From Physocladia obscura (lineage: Eukaryota > Chytridiomycota > Chytridiomycetes > Chytridiales > Chytriomycetaceae), in the NCBI GenBank assembly GCA_027596945.1, contig JADGJH010000103.1, positions 3,474 to 29,746 on the forward strand: a DNA stretch of 26,273 bases. Direction: 5' to 3'. A program made the translations under genes and the position numbers. The notes under the pieces were generated by a model that was not told where the DNA came from, searched no databases, and saw nothing but the letters and a program-made list of their open reading frames with translations. This document shows positions 4,366 through 25,934 of this stretch, piece by piece (positions within the stretch are counted from its first letter, which is position 1; each line of letters begins with the position of its first letter).

Positions 4366-5082
4366 ATATTAATTACTGGTAGAATAATCGATTATTGCCT
4401 GATATTTATGGTTTTTGCAATTTCATGTAATATGTTTACCATGGCAAGGCATCTTGCATTTGGCTCATGTGACCCGAGAAAAATTGTGATACTAACAAAA
4501 TAGGCTAACAACCTTGGCATGATCGTAACTCTTCTAAATGCCTTTGATTCCATGGCTGTGTCACTGAATAAAATAGGACGTAAAAGTTTAATACACACAA
4601 CAAGTTAATTCATTATAAGATTAAATTTCTTCACATACACTCTTAGATTATGTTACAATTGTCTATTCCGATTAAAACATGTAAGTAAGTAGATTTAAGT
4701 TTAGTAATAAAATTAAATGAACCGAGAAACACTTTAATTTGTGCATGAATCAAGTCTCTATCGTTAAACAAATCTAGATGACAGCGGAAATACTGCAAAG
4801 AATTTTTTCCTTCTGTTTGTTTGTATGTAATTTTTTTTCCAAATTTCTGTACAAATTGATTTCGCAAATTAAACTCCACCAATCCGACTTGTTTTATTCA
4901 TTAGTCATTCATTATTGAAATTTAATTCAAATTATTGTGAATCTATAGCCAAAGATGTTAAACAGCACTGTCGCTAATAAGAAATAATATAATACGAAAT
5001 ACATCACGTGAACTTTGATTGCATGAATCAAATTTTTGAGAAATAGAGAATTTTGAAAAAAAATTAAATTAAAAAATCCAAA
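4366..5082. other. Intergenic region between receptor and GH5 gene
   Basis: This AT-rich spacer of about 720 bases has no coding sequence I can support. AATAAA at 4567-4572, about 200 bases after the receptor stop, could be its poly(A) signal. A palindromic CACGTG (5006-5011) lies about 75 bases upstream of the GH5 ATG and matches the E-box core bound by bHLH regulators, but a single hexamer can occur by chance. The last 40 bases before the GH5 start are A/T-rich, as expected for a fungal leader. Confidence 0.5.
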
Positions 5083-6844
5083 ATGCAACTTCTTAACATA
5101 CTTCTTGTAATTGGAGCGTCGCGTTTTGTTGTAGCTGACTGTGTTGATTCTGATGGCGGATCAACTACTTCAACAGCCACTGCCAACTCCGGCCCAACAG
5201 ATAGTACTGTCACGAGTGCCACAGCGGAACCAAGCTCCGCTTCAACGCTCACCGAAACAACTACTTCGTCGACCTCAACTCCAACTGCCACCAGTTCTCC
5301 TTCTCTGCAGTACCTGGGTCTTGACGAATCTTGCTTGGAGTTTGGCTCTGGAAAGTACCCCGGTGTTTACGGAACAGATTACACGAGCCCGAATCCAGTG
5401 GCGATGAAAAACGCAAACGGTCAATTTGCCAACTTGTTTCGTATTTCTTTTGCATGGGAACGCGTTCAACCTGCCTTGAATGGAACTTTGGATCCATTTT
5501 ATTTCTCGCTAATTGATGGCGCAGTTCAGACTGCTACAAATTTGAATTCTGTCGCTGTGTTGAATCCTCATAATTATGCAAAATACCGCGGTACGACCAT
5601 TGGTACTGGTAATGTGACTGCTGCGAATCTTGCAAACCTATGGGTTCAACTTGCTGACATTTATAAAAATAATTCACTTGTTTGGTTTGGGTATGTACAA
5701 TTTTTATTTCAATTTTTCGGTGTATTTTAAAAAATTAATATATAGGCTTATGAATGAACCTAATTCTATTGATGCAACTACGTGGTTCGATGCAGCACAG
5801 TTATCAATTAACGCAATTCGCGAGACCGGTGCAACAAACGTCATCACTGTTCCTGGAAACTGCTGGACAGGCGCGCACAGTTGGGTTTCTGGAAACTGTG
5901 ACATTACGCCAACTGCAAACGCAGTTGCCGCGCTTGCGATTACCGACCCAGCAGATAACTCTGTATTTGAAATGCACCAGTATTTTGACGTTGACTTTTC
6001 TGGATCTCACGATTCGTGTGTCAACAACTACACGACCTTGATTGAAGCTACACAGTGGCTGCGTATCAATAATAAAAAAGGATATCTCGCAGAATTTGCC
6101 GGTGCCAGCAATGAGCAATGCGAGACAGTGGTTTCTGACGTTTTGGCATTTTTGACTACGAATGCTGACGTTTGGGTTGCTGCTGGTTGGTGGGCTGGTG
6201 GACCATGGTGGGGAAGTTACATGTTTAGCGTGGAATCTGATGGCATCACTCCTGCGCCAGATGCTGTGATGATTCCAATCCTTGGCCAGTATAAAGTCGG
6301 AGGTGAGTCAACAGCAACTGCAACAACGTCTACAACGAGTGCTGTCCAAACAACATCAACTGCCACTTCTTCACCCCCAACGAATTTGCCTGATCTTGTT
6401 ATATATGATGGAGGATCTTCTTTATCTGGAGATTGGCAAAATTGGTCATGGAACACTGATTTAACTTTTAACTACACCGAAGTGCCACCCCCCACAGATG
6501 ACGGTGCGTTTCTTGCCAGCTCTTCAAACTGGGGTGGAATCAGTTTCTACTTGCCAGAATCATTTAACCAGTACTCGACTTTTGCATTTTTTGCATCATC
6601 GCAAAACATATCTTACACAATTGGCTTTTCTGTTTCTGGGACCGGTTATTCATCGCCCACTGTTACACTTCAGTCTGCTTGTGTGGGAACTTTGTCTTCA
6701 ATTGCTTTTGTTTCTTGTTCTGTGGATCTTCTTGCAGACAGTCCATCTTCGTACCCTTTTGATCGTGTCAATATTCAAAGCCAATCTGCGGGAAACCAAA
6801 CAATTGTGCTTTCAGATTTATACTTCTCAACTGTTGAGTGTTAA
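5083..6844 (+). CDS. Secreted GH5 endo-beta-1,4-glucanase (subfamily 5-like) with C-terminal beta-sandwich domain
   Basis: The model has two exons (5083-5690, 5746-6844) joined across a 55-nt intron (GTATGT...TATAG), giving about 568 aa. The intron falls inside WFG|LMNEP, and splicing restores the catalytic motif. Residues 1-18 form a signal peptide. Residues about 24-72 are a Ser/Thr linker, probably O-glycosylated. The GH5 barrel spans about 75-388: NPHNYAKY, NEP with acid/base Glu207, MHQY with His280, and nucleophile Glu319 in GYLAEF. The blocks NPHNYAKY and WFGLMNEP match fungal Cel5A/EG2-type cellulases that cleave internal beta-1,4-glucan bonds. A second Ser/Thr linker (about 389-415) leads to a C-terminal domain of about 150 aa containing GDWQNWSW and ending IVLSDLYFS. 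This looks like a beta-sandwich carbohydrate-binding module but I cannot name its family. There is no N-terminal CBM1, although the linker is placed as if one had been lost. The gene is convergent with the RdRP fusion downstream. Confidence 0.92.
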
Positions 6845-7504: not shown

Positions 7505-10500
7505 TCACTCCAATCCGATATTCCATCTTTTTCGAAATTCCATAAACGATAAACCAACTCCCCAGAAACTATCAGCAAATTTTTCAATACCCACACCACC
7601 AGTTGCAGGCAACGGAAGATGAAACTCAATCTCCAAGGAATTTCGAACCAACTTAATAAATGGGCTGTTTTCTTTTTCTTCTGGCAAATACCAAAGTACA
7701 TCTAACACCCAGCATTCCACACCATTCGTATTATTACGGTAAATTGATGATTTTGTCGCTCTCACCATTCCAACTTCCATTATTGGGTCACATCTGTACT
7801 TTGCTGGAGATTTTTCAGGCCCTGAAATAACCGGGATAAGTACAGGAGATTTTCGAAAACGATCTGGAAACTCGTCCGTGTGTAACTGATCTTGGGCCAT
7901 TAAATAAAACCGGATATCTTCCTCCGTCTGCAAATCTTCGCCTCCAACTTGAATTTCCATATTTGATGAACTCGAAGGGATGAGTGTTGCTGCAAAAAAT
8001 CGTGTAGTTTCAGATTTCGCCGATTTGATGAATCCTTGAGAATCAATGGTTATGTGGACAGACTTCTTGCGATTATATGCCACAGTCACAGTAACAGATC
8101 GATCTTCCACTCCTCTGAACCCCGATGGTATACTTGAAGGATGTGATACGACTGTTTGAATAAATCCTTGTGACTTGAGGAACGAATCAAAAGAGTGTGT
8201 CATAAGGTTAATTTCATCCTCAGATTTCAGCATTATTCCGGAAATAAAGGCATGTGTTGCTCCAACATATTGCTTTTTCTTTGCAAGGTCCATTTCTTCA
8301 AAATCCTGAACAAGCCTCTTTTCTCTGTAATTCTTGATAGCGTCTTTCACAATAAGTGCATTGAATTTTCTGTCTTTAACTGGTATTTCTTCAGAATAAT
8401 TTGTTTCAGAATCACTTTCAGAGAAATTTTCGGAACTGTTATCGTCAATATCACTTGACTCAAAGATATATTTTGTGTTTGGCAAATCTGTGTTTTCCGG
8501 GTTTTTGGCAGTTATACTATTCATTTGCAGCCTGACTTCCCAACTCTTCTTTGTAATTCTCCTCTTCAGAAAAGCTGCTTCTATGTCAGAAATTTTAACG
8601 TCTGCTCGCGTTTCTGGAGGAAAAGATCTCTGTAAATTTATAATGTAATCACGACCTGTATATAACTTTAGCGTAATTCCAATAAAAATCCACAATAAGA
8701 TAAAATGTCTATATAATTTGCACCAACCAAAACGAATAACAGCAATTACATCGCTATCTTTGTTAGTTAAAGCACTCTCGCGTAACCTTTCATCGACTGC
8801 TCGCCACTGACGGTATAGTGCAGTGCGAAACTTCATTTGCGCGTGAGTCATCTTGGTATGGTCTGAGGTGAGCGGAGCAATTAGCGACGCAGTATGAACA
8901 GCAAGCCCAACATGCTGAGGATGTGAAGGGCCAGTATAACGACGAAATCCAAGAAGATCATTATCGCTCGATGATCCCTCGAAAATATACCTATGCAGGC
9001 AAAAATAATCAGTATATTACAATTGATTTATCACATATTTTTACTTACACGCAAGAATTTTCAACAAAAGTGAGCCCTTGACTTCCTCGTTTCACAATCA
9101 TAGTTTGATTAATCATTTTTTGGATTTCATTTTCGACTTTTTGAACATCAGCAGTTGATCCTTCAATGACAACAACAGATTTTCCGTTGTTTGCTGACGC
9201 ACGACTAATTGAAACTTTAAGGCGATATTGACTTGCAAACTGAGAGTTGCATAACGTTTCAAGCCTAAAAGCATTGAATTTTTCAGCACCCAAAATTCGA
9301 TCTGAAAATGCTTTGCTAAGACGAACAGTGGAAACTTTTGGTGAAAAAGTGTCAACTCCCGTCAATAATGATATCAGACTTCCGTAATTCATCGACAGAT
9401 TATGCAATGCGTGTTTCGAAAGTTGGGACATTAAATAAGCCTCCGCAGAATTTTTTGTGAACACTATGAATTCTCTTCGCTTCACCGAATCCCAAACATG
9501 AAATGCTCGATTATTTGAAAAACTCTTCAAAAAATCAATTATAGCCATGGAAGCTCGAAGAACAGTGGAAAATTCTGAACAGCACACATCTAATATCTTA
9601 AGAACGACAGCCTTCGGGTCTTCATCTTCAACTTTGGAAACTCTATCTGCTGATACGACACTGACAAAATTGCAAAATCCCCAAATGAAATCAGATACAG
9701 TCAAAATTCGATTTTTCAAGCCGTTGTTATTTTTCACAATACCAGAAACTCGAGCCCATTTGAGAAGTACAGAAAGAGCGGCATAAATCCATGGCGCAGA
9801 TTCAATAATACGCAAAAGCTTTGTTGACTTTGTCAATCCTGAGTCACCAACACTTATGTCAAAGTGAAAATTGTCAGAATCAACACCAGCTTTTTGAGTT
9901 GTAATAATCGGAACTTTTGTATCTTCGATAATTCTGGCACTAGGAAAATCCATCCTGATAGAAGGTAGAATTTGACGTAGCAGCTTGGTGGAATGCTGTG
10001 TCAAATCATTTCCAAGTTTCGAAGTGATACACAAATCAACATCAGACGAAAACTCATGCAAACAAACCAAAGATGATCCAAATAGTTGTAATTCTACGCC
10101 TGATAAAATAGACTGAACTATCAACGAAAGTTGACCTTTCAAATCATGACGGTCACTCAAGTCTTCCAGCAACTCAAAGCGTTGATCAACCATATAATTT
10201 CTTATATTTCGCGCAAACGACTCGCAAAATGTGTTTACAGTGGGGTATACTAAAGACTTAACATCTTTCTTACAATTCTTTTTGATGGAAATTAGGAAAG
10301 CAACAGGAATCCAAGCAAAGCTGTAAAACTTATTTTCTGAACCGCTTTCAGAAGAATGTCCTGCAACATACCACGCTGACGATTTTTGCTGCTGCTCAAC
10401 TAATTCGTCACCGGCTATCCATTCTTGAAATTCGTTCAAAAATTTGCCTTGAATTCGGCGCATCTCTGAATATACTTCAATGCCGATCTCGTTTTTCCTA

Positions 10501-13500
10501 TGCTTTAAACGCGAATATACTCTCACAGATTGTTGCACAATGAGTTCACCCTCACTCGGAATACCGTATTGAGCAAGTAGCGCGGAAATGTTGAATCTGT
10601 ATTGTTTGTACTTTTGACATGCAAATTTCAAGAACAGCGTATGACCATCAAGGACAAGATCCGAATCCATTTCAACATTCAATAGACTGGAAGCATCTTC
10701 TAACACAACACTGTCTCGAAACAATATTCCCAACGTTTTCTCAGACTTGTACATTTTTCGATCGTATTTCTGCATAAAGTCGGGATATTCGTTGGGCCAC
10801 ATGTTTGGTGGAATTTCAACATGACGCTCTGTTTTTGGAAAGTCGACTTCAATATTGTTGATTTCGGCAAGACGCAGCGATGCTGGATCTGCTGCACCCT
10901 TTTCAGATTTGTCGGCAATCGCAAGATGGGCATTCGCCACAACACCTAGCTTTTCGTTAGACATATAGCGCATATAAAAATCAACTAAATCAGCGCCCGT
11001 AATTTTATCGGCACGTGGATTAACAGAACCCTGAGAGTTGAACACCATAGCAGGAACAGTAACTTGCGGTATTAATGCCGGATGCCAAATTACAGAAAAT
11101 AAGTCACCATCAAGATCTCCTCCACTACATTCGTTTGGATGCGATGACGGACCCTTCGATGGAAATACAACTAAAAAAAGAGTATTTTTATAAGAAAAAA
11201 TCGTAAAAATAACCAGAACTCACCGCAATCTTTCAAATGCGCCAAGCCAGGGGGAACATTTTTGCGTACACGCAAAACACGAACATCACCGGGATGAAAC
11301 ATTGGATTTCGGCAGACAATAACATTCTCACTTTCAACCAAATTTTCATGCAAATACTCAAGGCGTCCAGATACATAATTTGGCGTTGAAACGCACACCA
11401 ATACTTCTCCGTGTTCTAATGAACTTGTTTCATCCATAACTCCAAGTAAAACTCGACCTTCGCGGATAAAAATACGCGCTTTTGTTCGGATTTCATTTAC
11501 TTTTACACGATATAATGACACAAGTAAGGAGCGAAAATATGGCTCCGACACCAAATTAAACAACTCAGACACTTTCGGCCAAATCGCATCATCTGCAAGC
11601 AATTGATGATATTTGCCTGAATCAATTGCAACTTCTTGGTCGCAAACCATTTGCCGGCATGACTCCAGATACTCCCTCTGCAGTTTTAAAAATACGGTAC
11701 TTGGAACCCCTAAGGTTTCCAAAATCACTATCAATTGACGGTTCAGAAAGCAAGGAATGTACTGCGATACGTTAACAACACACAATTCATTTCTTGAAGA
11801 TACAAATTTGATCATGCTTGGTCTCAATCTAATGTCCTCAGCGTCACTCATTTCAGGATTCACCACCAAAACGCCTTTAGCTCCACCAACTCGGATTTGA
11901 AAAGCTGTTGGTACTGAACGGTCCAAATAACTAACATTCTTGTACTTTTTGTAGACATTTTCGGCAAATTTTGGCCCAATCATTCCAACGCCGTCTGAAA
12001 GGATATCGCCGTTATCAGCAAATTTATCATTGATTTTGGAAATCAAAGAGTTTGGGTGCACATTCAACGTCGGAACAGATGATGAAAAGGAGAGACCCAG
12101 CCTTGCCAAGTATTTTCCAGGTGTCTTGATTTGATCAAGCTCACCAATTGAAGACCGAAGTGCATCGACATCAAGATTTGAAAACCAACAACTATAATTG
12201 CGCAACTGAGACGCCGAGCATCCAAGAAATTGAAACTTGTCACCAGTTTTGCTTTTTATCGACGGAATTAAGAGCCCAGACGTCATCGTTTTTTCAACTC
12301 GAGCAAGCAAATCGGCAGTGTTTTCAAGAAGCTCACCATCCTCATCGCGAAACGAAACGATAATAAAGTTTTCTGCAGACCCGTGGCTCCGAATCATTGA
12401 GTTGGCTAGCATTTGACACATTGGCAAATAGTACCATCGAGTTGGTGTAACCATAATGTGACGTATTTGCATATATAATTTTGATTCTGAGGTGACAGTA
12501 GGCATCGAATCCTTTTGGGATGACTTTCCAGTAAGAAATTTCGAAAGACTGAAAGGCAACAGTTCAAATCGTGAAGGAGTAAATACTTCCAAAATTTGTG
12601 CGATTTGATCTGGACTCTTTGTAAATAATATAAGTTGATTTACAAAGTCTGAATCTAGAAATCCGTCGGAAAGAAGGTGCATATGTTTTGACCAAAACTG
12701 AATAAATGACCCATTCAATGCCAAAAGCAAACTTGGATTTTTATTAATTTTCGATAAATGTTTTGAAGAATTTCTTGCTTCGATTATGTGCGCATCCCAA
12801 ACTTTAATATTCCTGCGTTCAAGTTTTTGCTGAAATTTCTCTGCATCTTCACTAGTAAGAAAAATTTCAATCTGAAAGGCCAAAGATTGCGCAAACAAAT
12901 CTATGGTTGTTCTAATCCAACTATTTGCTGAGTTAGGAGATTTTTTGAATACCCAGGGACCAGATTTCAATAGAACCCAAAATCGAGAATTTTGGTAATC
13001 CATGATTATATCCGAATCGATGGAAGAGAAAAAAAAATCCATACGGAGAGTCTCGGACTCAAGAATCACAGCACTTTCGGATATCAGCACTCGAGAATCG
13101 TTGTTAATTTCTCCAGGCCATGTCGAAAATCCTTCATTAGATGGGACGAAAGTCGTTGTGGTTATGAACCAGCCTCTTTTTACTCCAAGTAATGGCAAAG
13201 ATAAATAATCTGATGTAGTTTCATTGTTCTCTTCTCTAATTTTAATACGACGTGTCCACAAAGAATGATTGAGTATCGGGTTTTGGTTGATTTTCAACAC
13301 AAAGTCATAGTAGTCGGACACAGATGGAACCAAAGGTCTTAAATGAACAAGACCTGAATCAATATCACAACATATAACTGACATCCAAGTTCCAAAATAG
13401 TCCGCCAGCTTATCATTCGTGCAAAATGCAGGAACATTTTTTACGCCAATCAACAAGTCACGGGACTCAATTGTAAAACGCCCTGCGTCGTCATCGTGAT

Positions 13501-16048
13501 CTCGACCATTTCCAGTCGAATTTACAACAATGCTGGTATTTTGCAATCTATTTATGACATCAATTGCGTTTTTTACTTGGTCGTTGGGCATAACCATGCT
13601 TCGTATAGTATCAATTAGCATATTTTCTCTTGTCTTCATTGTTTCTTCAAGAGCGTACTGTTGAGGGGTACATAAAACGACAAATCTACTGTCTTGGTGT
13701 CTGGCGCGACCACGACTTTGAATTAAAGACTTTATATCGGTTACCCCATCAAATCGAATTACCAAAGAGCAGTTCGGAACATCAAGACCTGATTCGAGTT
13801 AAAATGAAAAGACAAATCCACAAAATAAAAGTAAAAATAATGCACCTTCTTCCAAAACTGACGTCGAAACAAGGCATTTCACAATTCCTTGCTGAAACTT
13901 TTTCAAAAGCGGCTTTTGTTCATCCGTCCAATTCATTCCATCAAATCCTGAATGACCAACAATCAAAGTTGGACGCAACGGGACTGCAACTGACTGAACT
14001 TGCGACAACATAGCATGAAGAGCCCTTGCAGTACTCCGCTCACTAACAAACACAATAATCCTTAAAAAAGCAGGATCATTCATTTTATCACGAACTGCAT
14101 CCTCCAGTTCATTCACCAACGCTGAAACTCTTGCTGAACAAGATAATGTTAAATTGTTTTCGCTCACACCTCCACCAATAATTATACTTGGTCCAGTGCC
14201 ACTGTAGACCGGAATACTCTGTAAACGGGCCAAAAACAAGTTCCAAACACGCTCAAAGTCCGGATTAAAACGAATCATGGACATTTTCAGAGCACCACAC
14301 CGCACTATCATAGCAATACAGTGCCCAACACTCAAAACTTTTGCAGATTCAAGCACGCTGTGAATAAAAATCAAATTTCGAATCACAAGTTCATCCATGT
14401 TCGGTGCAGCTGGTGGTGTTCTCGAGTTTTGCTGCTGCATAAGATGCGAAACGCGGCGCCGTTCCAGCACAACATAATCCAAACAAGATTTTAAGGCACC
14501 AAGTGCTATTTTCGTTGTAGGATCGGCAATAAGGGCTGCAAACGATTGTGTTCCATTCATTGTCGTTCCATGAATGGGAAGAACCCATACCTGTGCGACG
14601 TGATTGAAATATTCCACAATCACTTGCTCGAATAGTGTTTCGGCCTTGCTTGGGTAAATTGTTCTCCAAACTTCTGTTGACGTCTTCAGTGCACCTACAG
14701 CCGCACTTGCTTCCCAGATCGGAAGGTAGACACGGGTTTCGTTGCCAAGTCTGCTACACAGTTCCAAAATAGTTCCCTTGATTTTTTCTTGAGAAGGTAC
14801 GCGTGACGTAATGGTCACAGGGGAAGCGGTGAGACCAATTGTACGAGGTCTGAGGTTTGGCGGAACGGCGGAAATTGCTGCAAGAAATCTTGCGTATCCG
14901 TGGTCGCCGGAAGCATGGTGAACCTCGTCCATTATAACAATCGATGCTTGCGATATGGCAACAAGTTGGGCGGAAACTGCATTCACTAATGTGTCAGCAG
15001 TGCAAAAGAACACGGTTTGTTCAGGTTCGGCAGCAAGTTTCTGTATTCGTTCACGTGAACTATTTTCACCAACCAGAACTTGTGCATGCAAATTTGGAAA
15101 GCTCATGCGAGTTTCTCGCTCAAAGTATGCGGCTTGCTGGTACGCCAGAGGAACGCGATCAACCTGAAAAATAATATGAGTGATAACTNNNNNNNNNNAA
15201 AAAAAAAAAAGAGAACCAAAAAGAAAGCTGTTTTTGTTGGATTCAAGGTTTTGAAAAAACAAACAGTGAGAAATGAAATCAAGGTTTTCCCGACACCAGT
15301 TGGCAAAACAAGAATTCGATTTCCCAGTAGACATTCGAGGAAGCATTCAATTTGAAAAGGATGTGGTATTGTTTTTGTGAAGGAAAACACGTCGATGCTG
15401 CCAAGTTGTGTAGTTGTCGGCAAAATAATCGAAGTGTTTTCTGACGGACGGAAAGTTGGCTCACTTGCAGGCAGAAAATTCGAAGCATCACGAGACGGAA
15501 TATGAGGGTGGAGTTGCATTTGCTTCTTCCACTTTGTTGTCAGAGATTGGGGTGGTGAATGTGAATTTGATGCTGATCTGTGTGCCAAATATGTTTTTCT
15601 GTAACCATACGCGATTGCCGGCTCTCTTGCGGGGCCGAGGATAGAAACATTGCCGACGGGGGCTGAGCACGCTACGAGAAAGGACGGATGAATATACAGA
15701 ATGCATAACAGCGATGCAAAAGAGGTTAAGGTTTGCAATCGTCAGGGTAAAATTACCAGCGCAGAAAGCGGCAGCAGGACTGAACGCGTCAGAGGTTCGC
15801 GCGATGCGATGAGCAGCGACAAAGCCGGAAGCCGGCAGAATAAAATACTTCGATTGTCTGCGCGAATTGTGGTTGTTGTTTGCGAAGCTAATATTGTCGT
15901 TGAGAAATGCGGATAACTCGGAAGCTGCAGCTTCAGGCCGCAACAGCAAATGTGACTCAGTGTAGAAACACAATGCCGCACGTCCGCTCAAAACAAGAAT
16001 CGATCCGCATCCACCGCAGTATAGTGCACTGTCCAATTCAACCTCCAT
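7505..16048 (-). CDS. Zinc-module / DExH helicase / RNA-dependent RNA polymerase / terminal nucleotidyltransferase fusion (RNA silencing)
   Basis: Six exons encode about 2745 aa: 16048-15757, 15671-15217, 15163-13846, 13788-11224, 11170-9049 and 8990-7505. All introns are GT-AG, 53-85 nt, and preserve the frame; intron 2 contains the 10-N gap. Order of parts: Mis18/Yippee-like zinc module (Cys11, Cys14, Cys96, Cys99); Dicer/RIG-I-clade helicase about 195-730; possible RRM-like stretch about 800-880; eukaryotic RdRP about 1125-1835 with DLDGD at 1562-1566; Cid1/TRF4-type nucleotidyltransferase about 1870-2130 with Asp1920, Asp1922 and Asp1981; unknown tail to the TGA. Likely role (inference): copying target RNA into dsRNA for silencing, with helicase and 3'-tailing activity in cis. 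There are no PAZ or RNase III domains, so it is not Dicer. Helicase-RdRP fusion is known from Dictyostelium RrpA/RrpB; RdRP, helicase and nucleotidyltransferase are separate subunits in fission yeast RDRC. Start: the ATG at 16048 is the first that keeps the zinc module; longer in-frame sequence upstream begins with a Lys-rich stretch from the poly-T tract. Confidence 0.93.
9411..10193 (-). other. Cid1/TRF4-type terminal nucleotidyltransferase module of the fusion
   Basis: Residues about 1870-2130 contain LFGSSLVCLHEFSSDVDL, the DNA polymerase-beta superfamily signature: Gly-Ser at 1908-1909 and paired metal-binding Asp1920 and Asp1922 (10035-10043). The third Asp is in HFDISVGD (Asp1981), followed by the LSVLLKWARVSGI helix that matches the LVKHWAKR region of Cid1-type enzymes and the start of the PAP-associated part. 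All three acidic residues are present, so the domain looks active. Enzymes of this family add U or A tails to RNA 3' ends; which nucleotide is used cannot be read here. The module lies in the same uninterrupted exon (11170-9049) as the RdRP DLDGD motif. Confidence 0.88.
10296..12481 (-). other. Eukaryotic RNA-silencing RdRP module of the fusion
   Basis: Residues about 1125-1835 follow the cellular RdRP (QDE-1/Rdp1/RDR) order: HIMVTPTRWYYLP, SDGVGMIGP, FQIRVGGAKG, LRPSMIKF, ARIFIREGRVLLGVMDE, FHPGDVRVL and HPNECSGGDLDGD. The Mg-binding Asp residues of DLDGD (11103-11117) are intact. The domain is split by the 53-nt intron 11223-11171, and splicing gives the expected KDCVVFPSKGP block just before the catalytic motif. 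The head region after it, with QYGIPSEGEL near 1744, is also typical. This family copies single-stranded RNA into dsRNA. Confidence 0.95.
13664..15381 (-). other. Dicer/RIG-I-clade DExH helicase module of the RdRP fusion
   Basis: Residues about 195-730 carry the superfamily 2 motifs in order: motif I PTGVGKT (Lys226), motif Ia FLVDRVPLAYQQ made by joining exons 2 and 3, motif II DEVH (328-331), motif III TAS (361-363), motif V STSVLEEGLDVPN around 681-694, and motif VI QSRGRAR (712-718). About 230 residues lie between motif III and the second RecA lobe, matching the helical insertion (Hel2i) of Dicer and RIG-I. VLEEGLDVPN is the typical Dicer-helicase motif V and is created by removing the 57-nt intron 13845-13789. 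Motif II is DEVH rather than the DECH of Dicer and RIG-I. All residues needed for ATP hydrolysis appear intact. Confidence 0.92.
15189..15198. other. Assembly gap (10 N)
   Basis: Ten N bases lie next to a 12-A run inside intron 2 of the RdRP fusion (15216-15164). The true intron length is unknown, but the flanking donor (GTTCTC) and acceptor (TTTTTCAG) join the helicase frame in phase 0, so no coding sequence needs to be missing. Confidence 0.95.
15604..16048 (-). other. N-terminal Mis18/Yippee-like zinc-binding module of the RdRP fusion
   Basis: Residues 1 to about 120 contain YCGGCGSIL (Cys11, Cys14) and, about 80 residues later, FCAACSAPVGNV (Cys96, Cys99), followed by an Arg-Lys-Thr-Tyr-rich strand. 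A CxxC pair, a spacer of about 80 aa, then CxxC with a Gly five residues on is the layout of the Yippee/Mis18 beta-tent fold, which is also related to the RIG-I C-terminal domain. The second CxxC is created exactly by splicing the 85-nt intron 15756-15672 (GTAATT...CGTAG), which supports both the intron and the module. The family assignment is by motif layout only. Confidence 0.5.
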
Positions 16049-16107
16049 CAAAATCCTCAATCTTGTTTTTTTTTTTTTTTTAATCTGTGTTCTGTCAGTC
16101 AGTTTCA
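16049..16107. promoter_or_regulatory. Compact bidirectional promoter between the two giant genes
   Basis: The divergent ATG codons at 16048 (minus) and 16108 (plus) are only 59 bases apart. The spacer is dominated by a 16-base T-run at 16066-16081, a poly(dA:dT) tract of the kind that keeps fungal promoters nucleosome-free. If the plus-strand gene starts instead at the ATG at 16198, the spacer is 149 bases. The two genes must share promoter DNA, or their transcripts overlap. Confidence 0.55.
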
Positions 16108-19100
16108 ATGATCTGTGAAAAAAATGAAAATTCATTAAAAAGAAAAAGAAGGAAAAGAAAAGAAAAGAATCGACGCATCATCAAAAAGGAAAAGGAAATG
16201 CGTCAAAGTTTTGTGGACGCTGGCAATACAGTGAACTCTCCATCAAGTCATCTTCTAACAATACCCGATGAGTCTTTGTCAATAGCTTCACCTATCGAAA
16301 CAATGAGTTTCATAAGCATTAATTCAGAGACAGACGTAGACTATGACACACCACTGTCTTCTGATAGCCAATTGAATGACTCAGTAACCCACGAGCTATT
16401 TGATCGACGGCCACCTAGCTATTTACTGGAAAAGTACAAAAGCATGCAATCTCCAATTAATAGCAGCATGAGTTTTATCAGTGCAAGCACAAACCTTCAT
16501 TTTGAGTTTCCCGCCTTTCGGAATAGTTCTTGCAATTCATTTGCCGCGTATTTATGCCATGGCAGTGATAATAACGACGCGGGCTCTCTGGTTGGCTTAA
16601 TTGCTGAAGAAAATTGCTGGAAACGTGTCGACCTTCTCGTACTATCTCTAAAAGCAATTATATCTTTTTCAAACTCGATATCATCATTAGCATCATCTAT
16701 GAAAGATATAGAACTGTGCTTAAACGAAAAGGATATAAATGAAGTGGAAAAATTTGCCACCAGCAGAACGAGTGCAAGCAGTAGTAGCAGTAATATAAAA
16801 AACAGCAATTGCAACAACAAAAATGAAAGCCTTTCTACTCTTTTTTCGCGACCTCCATCTTCATTTCATACACACTATACCTCTCAGACGAGTATTTCAC
16901 ATCCGTATCATCATACTAGATCTCATCTCTCTCAAATGTATAGAAAGTATTTAGGGCTGTCTGGTACTCCATTGATTGCTCTAAAAAAAACACAGGTTGG
17001 ATTTAATTTTCAAAATTTTCAATAATAATGACTAAACAATGGGAATTTCATTATCAAATCAAATTGCTATCTTCGGCTTTTTTTTGATAAGGGCAACCTC
17101 CCCGAAAATTCCCAAGCAACTCGCCTTATCAACCTTCTATACACCCGCACGTCATATACAGTCGCTGAAATTGACGTACTTGAACTGTACTCTCAGTATC
17201 GAAATTCCAAGAAAAAAATTTCACATTCAGTGAAATTTTCATCGTTTTGTCTTTCACAAATTTCTGCTTTGATTTCACAAAGTATTCTGCCGATATCAGG
17301 AATATTCTTCTCCCACTCTAATGACACACGTAGCATTTTCCCCAGCCTGGACACAAATCTTGTCCGATTATTTAATGCACTACGTGAATCCTGGAACGCC
17401 ACAAACGGTGTGTCTGTCGTGATTCTCATCGATGAGTATGGCCTTGAACAATGGGATTTATTTCGAGATTTGATTAATGGTATTGTGTTAACAAATTGCT
17501 TATTGGAAGTTTCGGGGGATCTAAAGATTCGATCAAAGTATGTTTTTCTGTTTATAATGCAAAAAAAATAATAAACAAATAATAACTAAAAAATAAACCA
17601 GCTCGGGGCGATGCAAATTTGACAAGCAAATAAAGCTTTTAAAAAACGAGATCTCTCTTCGCAATGATTTCAGCGTGTTTGGAATCGAGGTTGTTGAAGG
17701 AATCTTATCGCCTCAACTACATGCCCATATAATCAAATTTTACACAAATATGGGTTTTAAATTTTGGATTTCGAATTCATCTAAATTTGACAAAGTCAGT
17801 AATATTGCACCAAATAATTTACTGAAAATCGGCTCCGATATGCTTGAAATTGCGACAGCACCGGTGGTTGCCAACGCGTTAACATTAGTGGAAGATATAT
17901 ATATATCATTAATAAATAAATACCCAGAGCACGACGTTCCCGAAATATCCCGACAAGATTGGGTTGATATTTTTAATCGGTTAAATGAGTCAAATCCATT
18001 GGATTTTTGGAAGAAATATCAAACTGTATTCGCTCCGCTAAATCATGCTGATTTTAAAAACACCGTATATATCAAACCAAAATTTCCAAGTCCGCCGCTT
18101 CCATCTTTACTTCAATCAGTAACTTCCACAGCCGCAGAAATTTTTACAAACTCGTCTACAACCGCTAAATTTGATCCAACCTACCAAAATATAATTTATT
18201 ACACCCATATTGGTGTATCTATAAATCCACCCGCGCGTAAAAAGACACTCGCATCTCTCACACTCGGTGTTTTGCGTGCGCTCAAATCCAAGGACTTACT
18301 CGCATCCGCCCGATACAACAATGACCTTGATACAGATTCATCGGTATTGGCGTCCCCATTCCTCAAAATGGTGTCACTCTTTGACGCAATTACGGATTCT
18401 ATACACGCAACACCGTCTACCAAGTGGGTTTTGTCGCTGTTTTCTGTGCAAGCGCGACAAGAAGTTATAGCTGGTGTGAAAATGCTTGCATCGCGGTTGC
18501 GTGACGATACTGTGAGTGTTTGGAGTGCAACAAAAGTCGCGTTTATTCCAAAGAGTGAAGATATTACAGGAGAAAAAATCATGGAAAGTGATCCCATGTG
18601 GGCTTTGACGCAGGATTTTGAAGGACATCTAACGATTTATCTTTCTGATGGACATCCGTGTATGGAGGAGGCAGTAATACATAGTTTTATGAAGTATAGT
18701 TTTGGATGGAGGACTGGACTTTGCGTGATGGCAGAAGCATTAGTCAGGTACTTAAATTTTTTTAATTTTTAGTAAATTGAATCCGCAATTTCATGCCAGT
18801 GCGCAAGCATGTACGGATGAAAATTTTAAAATGCCGGTTCCAACAAGAATAATCCATGAAATTCGATCAGCATACAGGTCAAAAATGCTCACATATGTGC
18901 GGAATTCATCAGATGTTATCTCGCGAATCAACGCAGCTGCAGAGTCGGAAGGAGAAACAAAATATTTAACTCATTTGTGCTTGTACGTGAACGAATGTGT
19001 TCGTTATTTGATGATTGTACATGAACGTTAGTTTTACATTTATTACCTATATTATTTTAAATGCGTTGAAAATTATTTTAGAATTTTCGGGTTTAATGAG

Positions 19101-22100
19101 ACAGTGGCTGAATGACGAATATAATTCAGAAAATCCTGCCGAAAAATCACTTTGCAAATTTTTAGGAGAGCAAACTTTGTCTCCCGACGGCTTAAACAAT
19201 GTTGTTAAAATATTTACAGAAATTGAAAATTTTCTAAGCTCTGGCTCTGACTCAGAAAAGTTTTTACTCTGTTATCTTGCATTCTCAATTTATAAAGCAT
19301 GTAGACATTGCGCTTACTTGGAATTGAAGTTGGCAATTACAGACATGTCAACACAAATACTGCCAGACAAGGATCAAGTTGCTGTATGTCTAGAGATGGC
19401 AACTACACAAACGACTTTGCAGCAAATTTTCAATCTTTCAAGTTTAGAATTAGCACCATCTTTCCACAAAGGCCAACGAAATTTAATGCAAAAGGCAGAA
19501 GAATACATCAAAGATGAAGTTGAACATATGAAAGAGTTTTCATTTGATAATTTAGATTTCAGTACTGGCCGGCAAATCGGGAATAGCTATATTTACATTT
19601 ATCCTATTTTGATTGATATGGCTTTAAATGCTGCCATCGGCAGTGGGCTGTTCTTCAGTAACAGAATGGACACTATAACATTACAAGCTGCGACTGTAGC
19701 ATTTTTAGGTATTAAAATAGTTTTACCTATTATTTTATTGATAATCATATTTATCATGAATCAAAGTGAGCTTTCCATTTGTCGGAGCCTTAATGAACAG
19801 TTTTGGTCGTACAATGTCCTTCTATTTTTACCAGCGCAGTATAACTGTTATGATTATGGCCGTATCACATCGACTCACAGCAAGTATTTCAGTTTTGATT
19901 TTTGTCGGTTTTTTAGTTGCAGCCTCAGTTTTTGTAATTGTTGGAACTAATTATTGGAGTTTAATTTGCATTAGCTTTATTTCCTCAATCTTATTTGGGT
20001 AAGTACAGTTCTTGTCAATAATTTTACTTATAATCAAACAGTCTATATATGATATTTTACGCAATTTTGGTCGCATTTAGAGATCCGGATGTTTTATTTT
20101 ACAAATCTCCAGGCCCCGTAGCTTGTTTGCAAAGTGTCATTCTTTTGATACCGTCATCAATTATATGCCGTTTGGCTTTCAATGATGTGTCAAATTCTTT
20201 GATTGTGTGGGGCATCTACTGTGCAATGATGATTTTGACACTTTTCTTCATGGTTTTCAAATATTCTCAAATTGCAAAGTCATATGTGCAATGGCCGTCT
20301 GCAGTTAAAGTCACTCCAAATGATGAAATCCTTAAAGCTTATGAAAATGTCATATTAAAACCGCTCAGTATTGATTTGGAAGAACCCGCAGAACAAAGTG
20401 ACCAAAGACGACGGCTCTGGGAACGCAGTGCTACAGAGTGGTTTGCAGAAAAAATGCGAAAGGCTGTGAATGCAGCCCCGAAAGCTTTTATTTCAGAACC
20501 AGTTCTTAAAAAACGTATGGACCAGTGGCAGTGGGAGAGGCCGTTAATGACCTGGTTCATGCAACGAAGTTCAGTCAACCCAGCCACAGTTAAATCTTTT
20601 TCACAAGAGTGGGATGCATTGTTGAAGCAAGCTATTGACGCTTTAGCAAAAAAATACCAAGTTGAGAAATTAAATCGAGGCGCCTTGTATGTATAGAATC
20701 TTATTTAGTATTAGTTTGTTTTAATTATTTTTTACTATGAATTTTGCAGACTCTTCCAATTAGAATCGCCTGCTATCGTATTTGGATTTTTGTATTTCAT
20801 GTGAGTATATAAGTTCACAAATTTTCTTGAATAATCGATTGATGATTCAGAATTACATTTTTGGATAAGTGGGCGATTTTATGTGCTACTGGAGAAGTAG
20901 GCGTTTTTATACCAAATGGCGATGCTCTAAATGTGGCAGTTATATTCGCTACTATATACTTGCTTCTTTCAGCTGGATTTCTTGAATTGACTATCACGTC
21001 ATGCTCTGAAAAAGTTAATCAATTCAAATATGCAAGCATGTCTGCGGTAGAGCAGCCTCTTGAGCTCATTGCTCAATATCAAAAATTCACAGACGAAATG
21101 TATAGATCTGAGCTTCAAAAACTAGTATTTCGATCATTTTTTGTTTTCGCTGTTATCACAGCGATATTCGCTGCTTCTTTCGGCTTGAATGACCCCTCGG
21201 ACACGATATTTTCTCTTTATGGCATTGCATGCTTCAATTACACTGGCCTCCTTGTGGGTCTCTTCAACAAGATATTCATCAATATCAATGAAAATCAACT
21301 AAATAAGTTTTTGACAGTTGCTGTTGTGTTGAGCACAGGAACTTCGACTGCAATGATCAAAATCACAAATAACAATCAGTTATGCCTCTTAGCCACAGCT
21401 TTAAGTTGCTGGGGTTTTGGATTGAGCTGCTTATATATAAGATTTTGCGAACGAAATAGATCACCGCACTACGAAATTTCTATTGGTATCTGGACAGTTT
21501 TAGATAAATTTCTTAAACACTGACATATTCTTTTTTAGGACCTAATCTAAGAACATCTGGGCAACGAATGATTGGTTTCTCTTCGAATTCATTTACAAAA
21601 AAGCAACTAGAAGTGCACGCAGAAATGCTACTTGAATGTAGAGAAAATTTTCTGCTTTGTGGTCCGTCGTCAAAAATTGGGTTATCAATTGTATCACAGC
21701 TGGAATTCGTCAAATCCAATGCAATTGCAATAAAAGAATGGAGTGTTTTACAACCACTTTCCGTCAATTTAATACTCGTTCTAGAAAGATCGATTGACGA
21801 CTTTAAGACCGGTGTGTTAATGGTTCGTGAAGTGCAAGGTGTCTTGACTGCAGGCGGCATTTCTTATGCGGCAATCGCTAGAAAATCAAAATTTGGAACT
21901 TGCGAATACTTGGATGTGTTTGTTTCCGGAACTCAAAATATGCTGGACAATGTGCGAACCAACTTACTCTGCGAGGCGATAGTTCATGAGATGGCAGAAA
22001 ATCTTGGCTTCAATCATTCAACAGCATGTGTGATGGAAACCCTCTTGCGTTCCTACGCTAATAGCGAATTCAGCATTCCAAATCGAATATCGCAGCAGCT

Positions 22101-25100
22101 CCACGAATGTGATTCGTCTCAGAAAGATTTTATCATTTCTAGAACTCAAGCAGAATCCACCAAAAGCTCAACGTTTGGTTTCGATGTTGACTCTTCATGG
22201 CAAGAGTTAACTCACGCTGAGAAAGAATGGCTGTTTTCTGTTTCGCTAATTTGGAACGATTCAATTCGCAGCTTCCTAGGGGTTTCAAATAACCAGAATG
22301 ATCTGTTTCGATTGTGTGTGACTGCACCTGTTACTCTAAAAAGGTTATTTTCTTCAAAGTTTGAACACTCAATTTTGCAATATTGCTGCCAAGCTTTGCT
22401 TCGTGGAACTCTTGCGCTCAAAATATCCGAGCTTATAGTCATCGGGTTCGCACCTCCGCCTTATGAATTTCCAAAAACAATACCACAATCTCCAAGACAT
22501 AAAATTTCAGATTTTTTGAACGTACATATTGCAGTGACCTATTTTGCTCTCACTTGTGATGTTTCTTTCAGCCGCGAAGCTTCTGAACTACCTTTTTTGT
22601 CTCGTCAAATATTATGCCCCCTATTTCGATTGAACCAACTAATTTTCAACGTCATAAACGAAGCTATTTTATTCAACAATGACTCATTCATCACAGATTT
22701 TAAGTTACAGTCGGAACAAGGAGTCGCTCAGATTCGCTATTATCATCAATTGGGAGGAAAATCAGTTTTGAAAAGAATTGATATTCTTGAAGGAGGAGAC
22801 AAAAAAACCGCCACTGTGGCAGATAAATCTGATACAATAATCGAAATTAAGCGATACTTAGGCAGCAAGCAAGTGAATTGGGAACCAAAAGACAACGAAA
22901 CCCCCTTTGCAATTGCTTTGGTTCAAAAACATCCATCTCCACGAATACTCGAAGAGAAGCTTTTGGACGCAGCAGGCACTGTTGTTAAATCTCATTTATA
23001 TTCTTTTTCAACGAAAAGTTGCGAGTATCCTATGAGCAGGTTGGTTTTCTCCAAAGAGATCCCTCCAAGAAGTGAGCAACTGAGTTCGGCTGAAGTTCAT
23101 GCCCTAAGCCACAGCAGTAATTTACTTGAAATTCACTGGTTTTACACTGAAGGTCCATTACTTGGATTGGTGCAATGCGCAATGCTGAATGCAGTACATA
23201 AAATATCAAAGACTAAAGTCAAGATTTCAGTTGAATTTCAGCATCAACTTCCGTTTGTCAGTAGTATACCAGTATGGGGAGTATTTCATCGAGAAGACTC
23301 ACCAAATTGGGAAATTGTTGTTGAATATGCGCCATTTTCGGATCCTGGCTCGCCGATGCAGCCGTGGAGCGTTCGATACCGAGATGGAGATAGCAATAAC
23401 GTCAAAGTTGTTATTTTTGATTATTCACACCCGAAACATGTCACAACAAAAACAATATTGACACCATCTGCAGCAAAGTTTGAACTTTTATCACAAATTA
23501 AAGGAGAAGAGGTGCATTCACCATCAGAAATAGTTGGTAAGTTAATTAATTTATATTTCTTTTATATAAATTTTTTATTGCCTTTCAGATGATTATTTCG
23601 GAATTTTAGGGCTTCATCCAATGAAAACGGCACAAAGTAGTTGTGAACTGATAACAAATTCTCTGAAACTTCGCAATCGATACAAGCTACACAGATCATG
23701 GCCGTTCATTCGAATTAACTCTGTTGAATACACCGGATTACCCTACGGCACACGGGAAAAGCGTGATATGCTTTGGACTGCTTGGAGAGGAGGAAAAATC
23801 GCCGGAGTGTTCGCACGACATTTCGATGAAACCATTCTCCAAAACGATAAAGCCCTGAAGATATATTGGAGAAACCGGCATTCTGGAAATTTGCCGGCGG
23901 CACTCGAATATCTGCGCGAAAACCGCCGACTATTAAGCAACGTTCTTTACAATGCTGATATTCCGGCGAAGCGTAACCGCTTGCAGATAAGATACAGTGA
24001 CTTGGCAATATTCGGCAGCGGGGGAGACAGCGAACATATTTCTTCGTTCGATAGTTGCGGAGACGACTTGCAAGTCGGAGAATCTTCTGATGTCCTTGAA
24101 GCAATTTGTCTTGATTCTGGTACGTGGCCCACGGGTGGAGGAGGAGTAGGTTCATGCCGCCGAGATGTTGTTGATTCTCTTTCGCGAGTTCGATGGACTG
24201 CCATTGCAGAAATCGCAGGTGCAGAGCTTGAACATAAGGATTACCAAATAGAAAAGAACATCAATGCGATCATTTACCTACCGATTTTCGATAATGACAT
24301 GGGAAGTCCAATGGAAAATATTTACAAGACATTTCCATTTAGAAGCTTGCGCGATAGGAATATCAGAACCACTGATAAAGTTGTTGCCACGAAATTTGTT
24401 CCAATAATTGTGGAATTGATTAATGCGTGTCTCACTGAAAATTTGGAAACAAGACGTGTTCAACAAGACGAGCAATTAATTCTGTCCTTTTATAATTACT
24501 TCAAGACGCATGATTGGCGAAAATCTTGGGATCATCCACTCACACAAAGATTGTGGATGGCCACATTCTTGGAAAAAGCAAAACAGATGGAGAATGATGG
24601 CCGTCTGCTTAAGCATGAGTCTCCAACTCTTGCTCACATCAGCATGTTGTTCACATTATTTTCTCGACTACTGTTGATTCTCAGTAGAGAGATTCCTAAA
24701 GTGCCTGTAGTTCATGTTTCTCATCACGGTACCCAATCTTTAATTGCTGTTGTTGCAAAAGTAGTTCATGGATCATCTGTAATTATTTGGGATCACGGAA
24801 TGCTTTGGCGTGAAAGATTGTTTGCGCTTGGAAGAGATCAAATGCCATCATTTGCTCAAATTGGATTTTCTGGATTAACAAGGTTGTGCACCAGATTGGC
24901 GTACAACAGGTGTGCTTCTCTCTTCTTTTTTTTTTTTTTTCTTTTCTTTTTTAATCATTTTTATTACGGCATGCCAGGGCTGATTATGTGACACCATGCA
25001 CCAATGTTCAAAATGTCATGTGGGCTGCATATTTGGCTGGAGGTAAATTTACCAAATTGTAAATTCTTTTTTAATAATAAATATAAAACATAAAGGAAAA

Positions 25101-25934
25101 TACCTTAATGATTTTGAGAGAGTTTTGCTTATGTCAAAATGCTCAGCCGTACTCAATGGAATGAATTTGAAGCGGTTCAGCATCAAACGTGAGCTGGCTC
25201 GAAAAACACCGACAGCGGTGATGCTTTCTCACATCTCGCCAGTAAAAGATATTATGAACGCCATCAAAGCAGCTTATCACGTAGTTCACGAGTTCAAAGT
25301 TTCAAACTACGAGCTGCATGTTTATGGATCGCCAAACACGGATCTTTCATATACGTTGACTTGCAACGCAGCAATCAAGGAGCTTAATCTCGAAAACAAC
25401 GTATTTCTAAAGGGGCTCGGAAATCCAACAAACGTGTTGCCAACAGGCTGGATTTTTGTCAACTCTTCAATAACAGAAGGCTTGCCTTTGGCGATCGGAG
25501 AAGCAGGACTTTGCGGACTTCCAGTTGTTTGTACAGATGTTGGAGGGTCACGGGAAGTTATTGCTGACTTGAAAACGGGGGCGGTGTATGGGGCTGTTGT
25601 TCCTCCTTCGAGACCGAGACAGCTGGCGTTGGGACAAATTCAAGTGTTTGCCATGACGGATGGACTTGATTTGTTTGTGAACCTGTCACAAAAAAATTCT
25701 TTGGCACAACAGCAACAGCAGCAACTCAGTGTGACCGATTTAGTGGTACAAGGACCAGAAGCTATGATGCGGCGTATTTTAGATCCAGATATCAATGCAT
25801 TGCGCGAGAAACTTGGAGAAATGTTTCGCCAAAAGACAATGTCTGTATTTTCAATTGCGCGCTACTGTAGAGAACACGAGCAAGTCTTATGGCTGGGAGA
25901 GTTGTATTCGCGTTCATGGCGTAGTATTGAATAA
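16108..25934 (+). CDS. Giant multi-pass GT4 glycosyltransferase, PelF/Gtb3-like (exopolysaccharide synthase)
   Basis: Thirteen exons encode about 3039 aa: 16108-16995, 17092-17537, 17602-18747, 18800-19026, 19082-19708, 19767-19998, 20042-20686, 20750-20800, 20851-21485, 21539-23536, 23589-24909, 24978-25042, 25096-25934. The sum is a multiple of three with every junction in phase. The long N-terminal region (1 to about 1065) is Ser-rich, then carries IDEYGLEQWD near 409. About 1069-1620 holds roughly eleven or twelve membrane helices. A large soluble region (about 1640-2600) leads to the C-terminal GT4 fold: IIWDHGMLWRER (2698-2709) resembles the TEHGIY-x-RER block of bacterial PelF; SPVKD and the E-x7-E sugar-nucleotide motif (Glu2888, Glu2896, in TEGLPLAIGEAG) are intact. 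The same architecture is known from fungal Gtb3, needed for galactosaminogalactan in Aspergillus, so an N-acetylhexosamine polymer is the best guess for the product. The start is uncertain: ATG 16108 opens with a Lys/Arg-rich stretch; ATG 16198 would skip it. An AATAAA lies 123 bases after the stop. Confidence 0.88.

Follow-up and report, generated by a model that had tools for sequence, protein, structure and literature searches.

Background

In model organisms, helicase, RNA-dependent RNA polymerase (RdRP), and tailing enzyme are separate proteins. The fission yeast RDRC is made of three separate subunits, Rdp1, Hrr1, and Cid12. In nematodes, the RdRPs EGO-1 and RRF-1 partner with DRH-3, and in Tetrahymena the RdRP Rdr1 is paired with a dedicated uridyltransferase, Rdn, again as separate subunits.

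Bollmann et al. (2016, PMC4791657) reported proteins that join a helicase to an RdRP from Peronosporomycete oomycetes, Dictyostelium, Hydra, and Nematostella. In that paper, the RDR helicases group together with 100% support, separately from Dicer; overlapping cDNA segments and RACE confirmed the P. sojae RDR, a protein of the helicase–RdRP type; and the Dictyostelium helicase–RdRP was implicated in the production of ~23-nt siRNAs. The same text names no nucleotidyltransferase (NTase), and the word ‘transferase’ occurs in it 0 times. Tailing has been tied to nematode RdRPs, in that MUT-2 pUG tails recruit RdRP and CDE-1 interacts with EGO-1 (PMC7988573). The RdRPs of Branchiostoma (PMC6396948) and Nematostella (PMC12768352) were reportedly not linked to siRNA amplification. 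Our limited search of the open literature found no mention of a fused NTase in these four papers.

Here we describe a gene from Physocladia obscura, a chytrid in the Chytridiales, that carries all three enzymes, together with an N-terminal zinc domain, on one chain. It lies in a window of 26,273 nucleotides (assembly GCA_027596945.1, contig JADGJH010000103.1, positions 3,474 to 29,746), and window coordinates are used throughout.

Gene structure and modules

After splicing, positions 16048-7505 of the minus strand give a single stop-free frame of 2745 codons. The features of the gene are as follows.

7505..16048, minus strand: whole gene, with six exons, 2745 codons, and four recognised modules (spliced frame and GenBank copy P0001)
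16048-15757, 15671-15217, 15163-13846, minus strand: exons 1-3
13788-11224, 11170-9049, 8990-7505, minus strand: exons 4-6
15672..15756, minus strand: intron 1, 85 nt, GT-AG; splicing restores the second CxxC of the zinc domain
15164..15216, minus strand: intron 2, GT-AG, 53 nt as assembled, with a 10-N gap inside; splicing restores helicase motif Ia
13789..13845, minus strand: intron 3, 57 nt, GT-AG
11171..11223, minus strand: intron 4, 53 nt, GT-AG, within the RdRP domain
8991..9048, minus strand: intron 5, 58 nt, GT-AG
8630..8740, minus strand: extra intron in the last exon, GenBank model only; the region is open in frame here
15508..16042, minus strand: N-terminal zinc domain, with CGGC at 16018-16007 and CAAC split by intron 1 and ending at 15667; predicted fold like the RIG-I/LGP2/DRH C-terminal domain
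13628..15381, minus strand: Dicer/RIG-I-type SF2 helicase, motifs I, Ia, II, III, V, and VI
10713..12451, minus strand: RdRP (PF05183), DLDGD at 11117-11103
9339..10238, minus strand: terminal nucleotidyltransferase (TENT), palm and helical part, GSS...SDVD...D
9105..9230, minus strand: possible KH-like RNA-binding element after the NTase; a weak match to KH_PARP14_8 (9.7e-5, 22.6 bits, below the cut-off of 27)
7505..8990, minus strand: C-terminal region, no Pfam match; parts align to the same place in relatives

The locus holds long open frames of 875 and 724 aa; 200 base shuffles of the region yielded no one-strand frame longer than 195 aa. The original prediction, that helicase, RdRP, and NTase follow one another in one frame of about 2745 codons, was borne out by splicing, by an exon-by-exon Pfam scan, and by the motifs, each of which was found again at its predicted position. 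It had also held that the fusions depend neither on intron calls nor on the N gap, and this stands. Exon 4 holds helicase motif VI together with the start of the RdRP, and exon 5 holds both DLDGD and the NTase. Neither join therefore depends on the intron calls; the gap is inside intron 2.

The closest database match is the same Physocladia obscura protein (P0001, 2692 aa), named ‘Interferon-induced helicase C domain-containing protein 1’ in GenBank. That model is without 16 residues at helicase motif Ia (15264-15217). With them, the pattern NP.....F.V....L..QQ is restored, which was found in 7/7 relatives compared (with VDR or VDK in 6/7). Because the restored residues are common to relatives, we prefer the originally predicted end of exon 2 to that of GenBank.

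The helicase motifs are GVGKT (15297-15283), DEVH (from 14929), and QSRGRAR (13720-13700), and exon 3 matches the ResIII/DEAD helicase family in Pfam (ResIII, 2.6e-6). Its nearest solved chains are the ancestral Dicer AncD1D2, DCL1, and LGP2, followed later by MDA5. A Dicer/RLR-type helicase placed N-terminal to an RdRP on one chain is the architecture of the RDR gamma fusions. The RdRP carries GGDLDGD at 11123-11103, and its Pfam profile matches at positions 1-416 in exon 4 (8.2e-94) and 418-581 in exon 5 (4.3e-43). Since these halves abut at intron 4, we take the RdRP to be continuous across it. Two solved RdRPs, 7w84 and 7eu0 (RDR2), match at 2.7e-102 and 1.9e-88.

An NTase had been expected by HMM in the exon 11170-9049, and an MTPAP-like NTase palm was indeed found there, in exon 5 (Pfam, 1.1e-11). 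Its motifs are FGSS (10082-10071), SDVD (from 10046), and a third Asp in FHFDIS (9869-9852); all three Asp, the GS, and the W..R..G helix are intact. Of 32 proteins picked by GS...DxD, a set that includes the window protein, 30 have D or E as the third acidic residue; in the window protein it is D. A profile search and a structure model both point to GLD-2, Cid1, TUT7, and other TUTases, and in the model the NTase has the TENT fold of palm plus helical domain. The fused TENT would be expected to add nucleotides to 3′ ends, though which nucleotide it adds is not readable from sequence. A conserved K in the fused NTases is R in GLD-2 and N in a trypanosome TUTase in our alignments. For close stand-alone NTase kin, a profile search that depends on shared exact words gave 2 weak matches among 7107 candidates. 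The C-terminal region was compared with the 124 other proteins of our set by phmmer, with a best E of 4.9e-9 for that small set.

The zinc domain was overlooked in the original prediction and adds a fourth module. In the predicted structure, two CxxC zinc pairs sit on a beta-tent fold. This fold is predicted to be most like the RIG-I/DRH C-terminal RNA-binding domain, with Mis18/Yippee as a competing likeness, and by that likeness the domain may bind RNA ends. A RIG-I-CTD-like N-terminus is found in the Nematostella and Acropora fused proteins too, and in the oomycete rows the second of the zinc CxxC pairs alone is visible.

Distribution among relatives

Two protein searches gave 17 and 111 matches, which together represent 125 different RdRP proteins. 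We scored the presence of helicase and NTase with HMMs built from members of this same set, using cut-offs of our own choosing. By this measure, a helicase, an RdRP, and an NTase signature occur together in 25/125, some of them partial proteins (e.g. P0007, P0012, P0025, P0059, P0109). In eleven more (11/125), helicase and RdRP come with an NTase-like tail that lacks the signature. Helicase and RdRP only were found in 13/125, of which ten, possibly truncated or shortened, end 31-86 residues past the RdRP; P0032 and P0056, also of this kind, have tails of 862 and 1005 residues in which no NTase was detected. The remainder comprises RdRP and NTase only (7/125), RdRP with an NTase-like remnant (13/125), and RdRP alone (56/125).

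The three-module fusions come from Fungi, Stramenopiles, Amoebozoa, and Metazoa. Carriers include the chytrids Physocladia, Phlyctochytrium, and Cladochytrium; the oomycetes Globisporangium, Pythium brassicae, and Peronospora; Pelomyxa (Archamoebae); the cnidarians Nematostella and Acropora; and the gnat Pseudolycoriella. The best non-self matches of the window protein are themselves fused proteins, and the domain order sought in relatives was found, for example in oomycete P0002 and Nematostella P0022. Pfam, applied to 17 of the 125 proteins, placed helicase, RdRP, and NTase in that order in 10, including P0004 and P0009, whose NTase matches fall below the curated cut-offs; in P0010-P0012 the NTase was missed by Pfam and detected by our own HMM and motif. 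With all three modules in 25/125 RdRP proteins across four eukaryotic groups, we reject the idea that the fusion is unique to Physocladia obscura. Dictyostelium RrpA and RrpB were not named among the matches of either protein search.

We built two quick trees, of 65 RdRP rows and 28 helicase rows, with SH-aLRT support only. The RdRP tree has long branches, and it places the chytrids in a 6-row group (SH-aLRT 86) with a pair of gnat sequences and an amoeba-labelled row. The window RdRP falls outside the clade of stand-alone plant and fungal RdRPs in this quick tree, and no starred set of half the rows or fewer includes it.

P0012 is encoded on a 136.9 Mb contig, the size of a chromosome, of the gnat Pseudolycoriella hygida, and has a helicase-C domain, an RdRP, and the NTase signature. 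The RdRP tree puts it close to chytrid sequences (SH-aLRT 83-86), and gene transfer is a possible origin for it; P0009-P0011, P0092, and P0102 are its look-alikes. P0019, on a 7.3 Mb contig of the liverwort Marchantia paleacea, combines an RdRP with an intact NTase, without helicase, and sits beside Pelomyxa (SH-aLRT 91), apart from the plant RDR clade.

Proposed function and the RNA-silencing genes of the host

The same arrangement occurs in oomycetes, amoebae, and corals, so the protein likely makes silencing dsRNA as a single machine. Our preferred reading, which we consider somewhat favoured by the evidence as a whole, is that this four-module protein turns single-stranded template RNA into dsRNA for Dicer and needs no separate partner subunits to do so. 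The zinc domain and helicase would first engage RNA ends or duplexes and translocate; the NTase would then extend the template or product at its 3′ end, a step that could help the RdRP to start or mark its products; the RdRP would copy the strand; and the duplex would be cut by Dicer, with the small RNAs loaded by Argonaute. We infer tailing of the template or product by the fused TENT because MUT-2 and CDE-1 act with nematode RdRPs. A single chain fixes stoichiometry and order, and offers one target for structure work.

The Physocladia obscura genome (21.76 Mb, 1222 contigs) has candidate genes for the later steps. RNase III pairs mark two Dicer-like loci, on contigs C129 and C61, and Piwi domains are found on C587 and C21, with a weaker match on C193. 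The C193 match (G000:C193:10886-11444, minus strand) is short, falls in two pieces, and has in-frame stops; it is perhaps a decayed Argonaute or exon pieces. We considered whether a Dicer had lost its helicase to the RdRP and rejected this: by tblastn C129 retains a helicase, so transfer with loss does not fit that locus. On C61, tblastn gave a short helicase match at the contig edge only.

There are two further RdRPs, one on C809 and a divergent one on C262. The C809 protein falls within a 12-row clade of stand-alone fungal and plant RdRPs (SH-aLRT 99, quick tree). In the stretches fetched, tblastn found neither an NTase nor a Dicer-type helicase on either contig, and both RdRPs were rejected as further fusions of this type. 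On C262 (locus L024, 2971-8285), two more plus-strand frames lie downstream of the RdRP frame, one with a DEAD/DEAH-box helicase match (PF00270, 2.1e-7) and the other with QRMGRAG and no Pfam match. This may be a fusion of RdRP and DEAH helicase with the order reversed. Around the fused gene itself, we scanned seven neighbouring frames with Pfam (5068-6844 and 16084-25931, plus strand). Two matched glycosyl hydrolase family 5, one DUF3492, and one glycosyltransferase group 1; three had no match, and none of the seven had an RNA-related one.

A different role, as a RIG-I-like RNA sensor or a maker of antiviral dsRNA that does not feed small-RNA amplification, would suit the RIG-I-CTD-like domain, the RLR-like helicase, and the GenBank name of an interferon-induced helicase. 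Branchiostoma and Nematostella also have RdRPs that were reportedly not linked to secondary siRNAs (PMC6396948, PMC12768352). We nevertheless regard this role as unlikely, given the Dicer-like and Piwi-domain loci in the same genome and the ~23-nt siRNAs in which a Dictyostelium helicase–RdRP is implicated (PMC4791657). A RIG-I-like domain within the helicase–RdRP family would link RNA silencing to RIG-I-type RNA recognition.

Probable age of the fusion and apparent decay of the nucleotidyltransferase in some relatives

The distance from DLDGD to GS is 292-396 residues in 31 of 32 proteins, and 542 in P0017. We compared the histories of the modules in careful trees of 23 rows, which include signature-less tails and from which the near-duplicates P0004, P0005, and P0024 were dropped. 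Helicase and RdRP trees share 7407 of 8855 quartets (84%), while the NTase tree shares 6157 with the helicase and 6229 with the RdRP (70% in both cases). With permuted labels, the mean was 33% shared quartets, and 0/200 permutations were as high as the real trees. The same trees were then cut to 13 rows, hand-picked to thin clades. Identical quartets came to 484/715 (68%) for helicase and RdRP, 392/715 (55%) for helicase and NTase, and 415/715 (58%) for RdRP and NTase, with 0, 9, and 3 of 1000 permutations, respectively, as high. Agreement among the module trees is thus much higher than with permuted labels, so that the fusion behaves like a single ancient unit. It is likely held together by descent rather than local to Physocladia obscura, with possible transfers between lineages, since the deep branches are long and weakly supported.

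Not every fused NTase looks active. Eight of the eleven helicase-bearing tails without the signature have a readable palm, and in 8/8 the second Asp of DxD is altered (to Q, N, E, or G); NTase activity therefore seems dispensable in some lineages. In five tails (P0028, P0029, P0049, P0067, and P0083, including the rotifer Brachionus and Paramicrosporidium) this Asp has become Q or N, and these are likely pseudo-nucleotidyltransferases fused to helicase–RdRPs, judging by their residues. Ten stand-alone RdRPs from lancelets and hemichordates (P0027, P0031, P0037, P0039-P0041, P0044, P0045, P0050, P0064) match the NTase profile at its first 28-75 positions and again from ~170, with the palm absent between. 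As the flanks of the profile match without the palm, the deuterostome tail looks like a palm-deleted TENT remnant; in several of the ten it is annotated as DUF7752 (PF24934). The fold is thus retained where catalysis is lost, and a single ancestral fusion followed by decay fits better than repeated gain.

Could the three enzymes instead have been fused independently in several lineages, as joint workers, so that chytrid, oomycete, amoeba, and coral proteins resemble one another by convergence? The patchy distribution would allow it, with 56/125 RdRPs lacking both helicase and NTase and with the stand-alone fungal and plant RdRPs, C809 among them, in a separate 12-row clade. Such convergence is nonetheless quite improbable. 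The module order is identical and the spacing near-constant, the module trees agree, the N-terminal zinc domain is shared, decayed NTases or palm-less remnants sit in the same place, and PMC4791657 reports a clade of RDR helicases, supported at 100%, from which Dicer is separate.

We think there is similarly little chance that the NTase of the window protein is a scaffold only, as may hold in rotifer-like relatives. The change of the second catalytic Asp in 8/8 readable signature-less tails and the absent palm of the ten lancelet and hemichordate RdRPs speak for such a role, but the window protein keeps the three Asp, the GS, and the W..R..G helix intact. Last, mis-splicing of neighbouring genes in annotation can be practically dismissed, despite the assembly gap in intron 2 and a gene model taken from genomic sequence, as each of the joins is contained in one long exon and distant relatives have the same order.

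With descent from one fusion as the preferred history, a broader and more speculative proposal is that the four-module protein was the ancestral eukaryotic small-RNA amplification enzyme. The fission yeast, nematode, and ciliate machines would then be taken-apart versions of it, and stand-alone animal RdRPs shortened ones, some with a palm-less NTase remnant. We hold this to be possible but rather doubtful; it suggests a testable history in which the split complexes are derived.

Comparison with known systems

The fission yeast RDRC has the same three enzyme classes (RdRP, helicase, and TENT), there as separate subunits and here on one chain. Tetrahymena Rdr1-Rdn likewise pairs an RdRP with a tailing enzyme, although its subunits are separate. 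GLD-2, Cid1, and TUT4/7 have the same fold and the GS-DxD-D signature, and the window NTase differs from them in being fused to an RdRP; the fused NTases also conserve G..K, where GLD-2 and the trypanosome TUTase have other residues at K. In nematodes, an RLR-type helicase with a CTD, an RdRP, and a tailing enzyme act together as separate proteins. The DRH CTD is C-terminal to the helicase, whereas the CTD-like domain of the window protein is N-terminal to it.

The nearest described proteins are the RDR gamma proteins, which, according to PMC4791657, likewise have an N-terminal DEAD/helicase-C region and an RdRP on one chain. Compared with that description, an NTase is now found in the oomycete and Nematostella members examined here. 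The analogy with RDRC-like complexes is supported by the joining of RdRP, SF2 helicase, and TENT on one chain, and ‘one-gene RDRC’ is an apt label at the level of function class. The helicase–RdRP half of this architecture was already published; what is added here is the tailing enzyme and the RIG-I-like sensor domain within the helicase–RdRP family.
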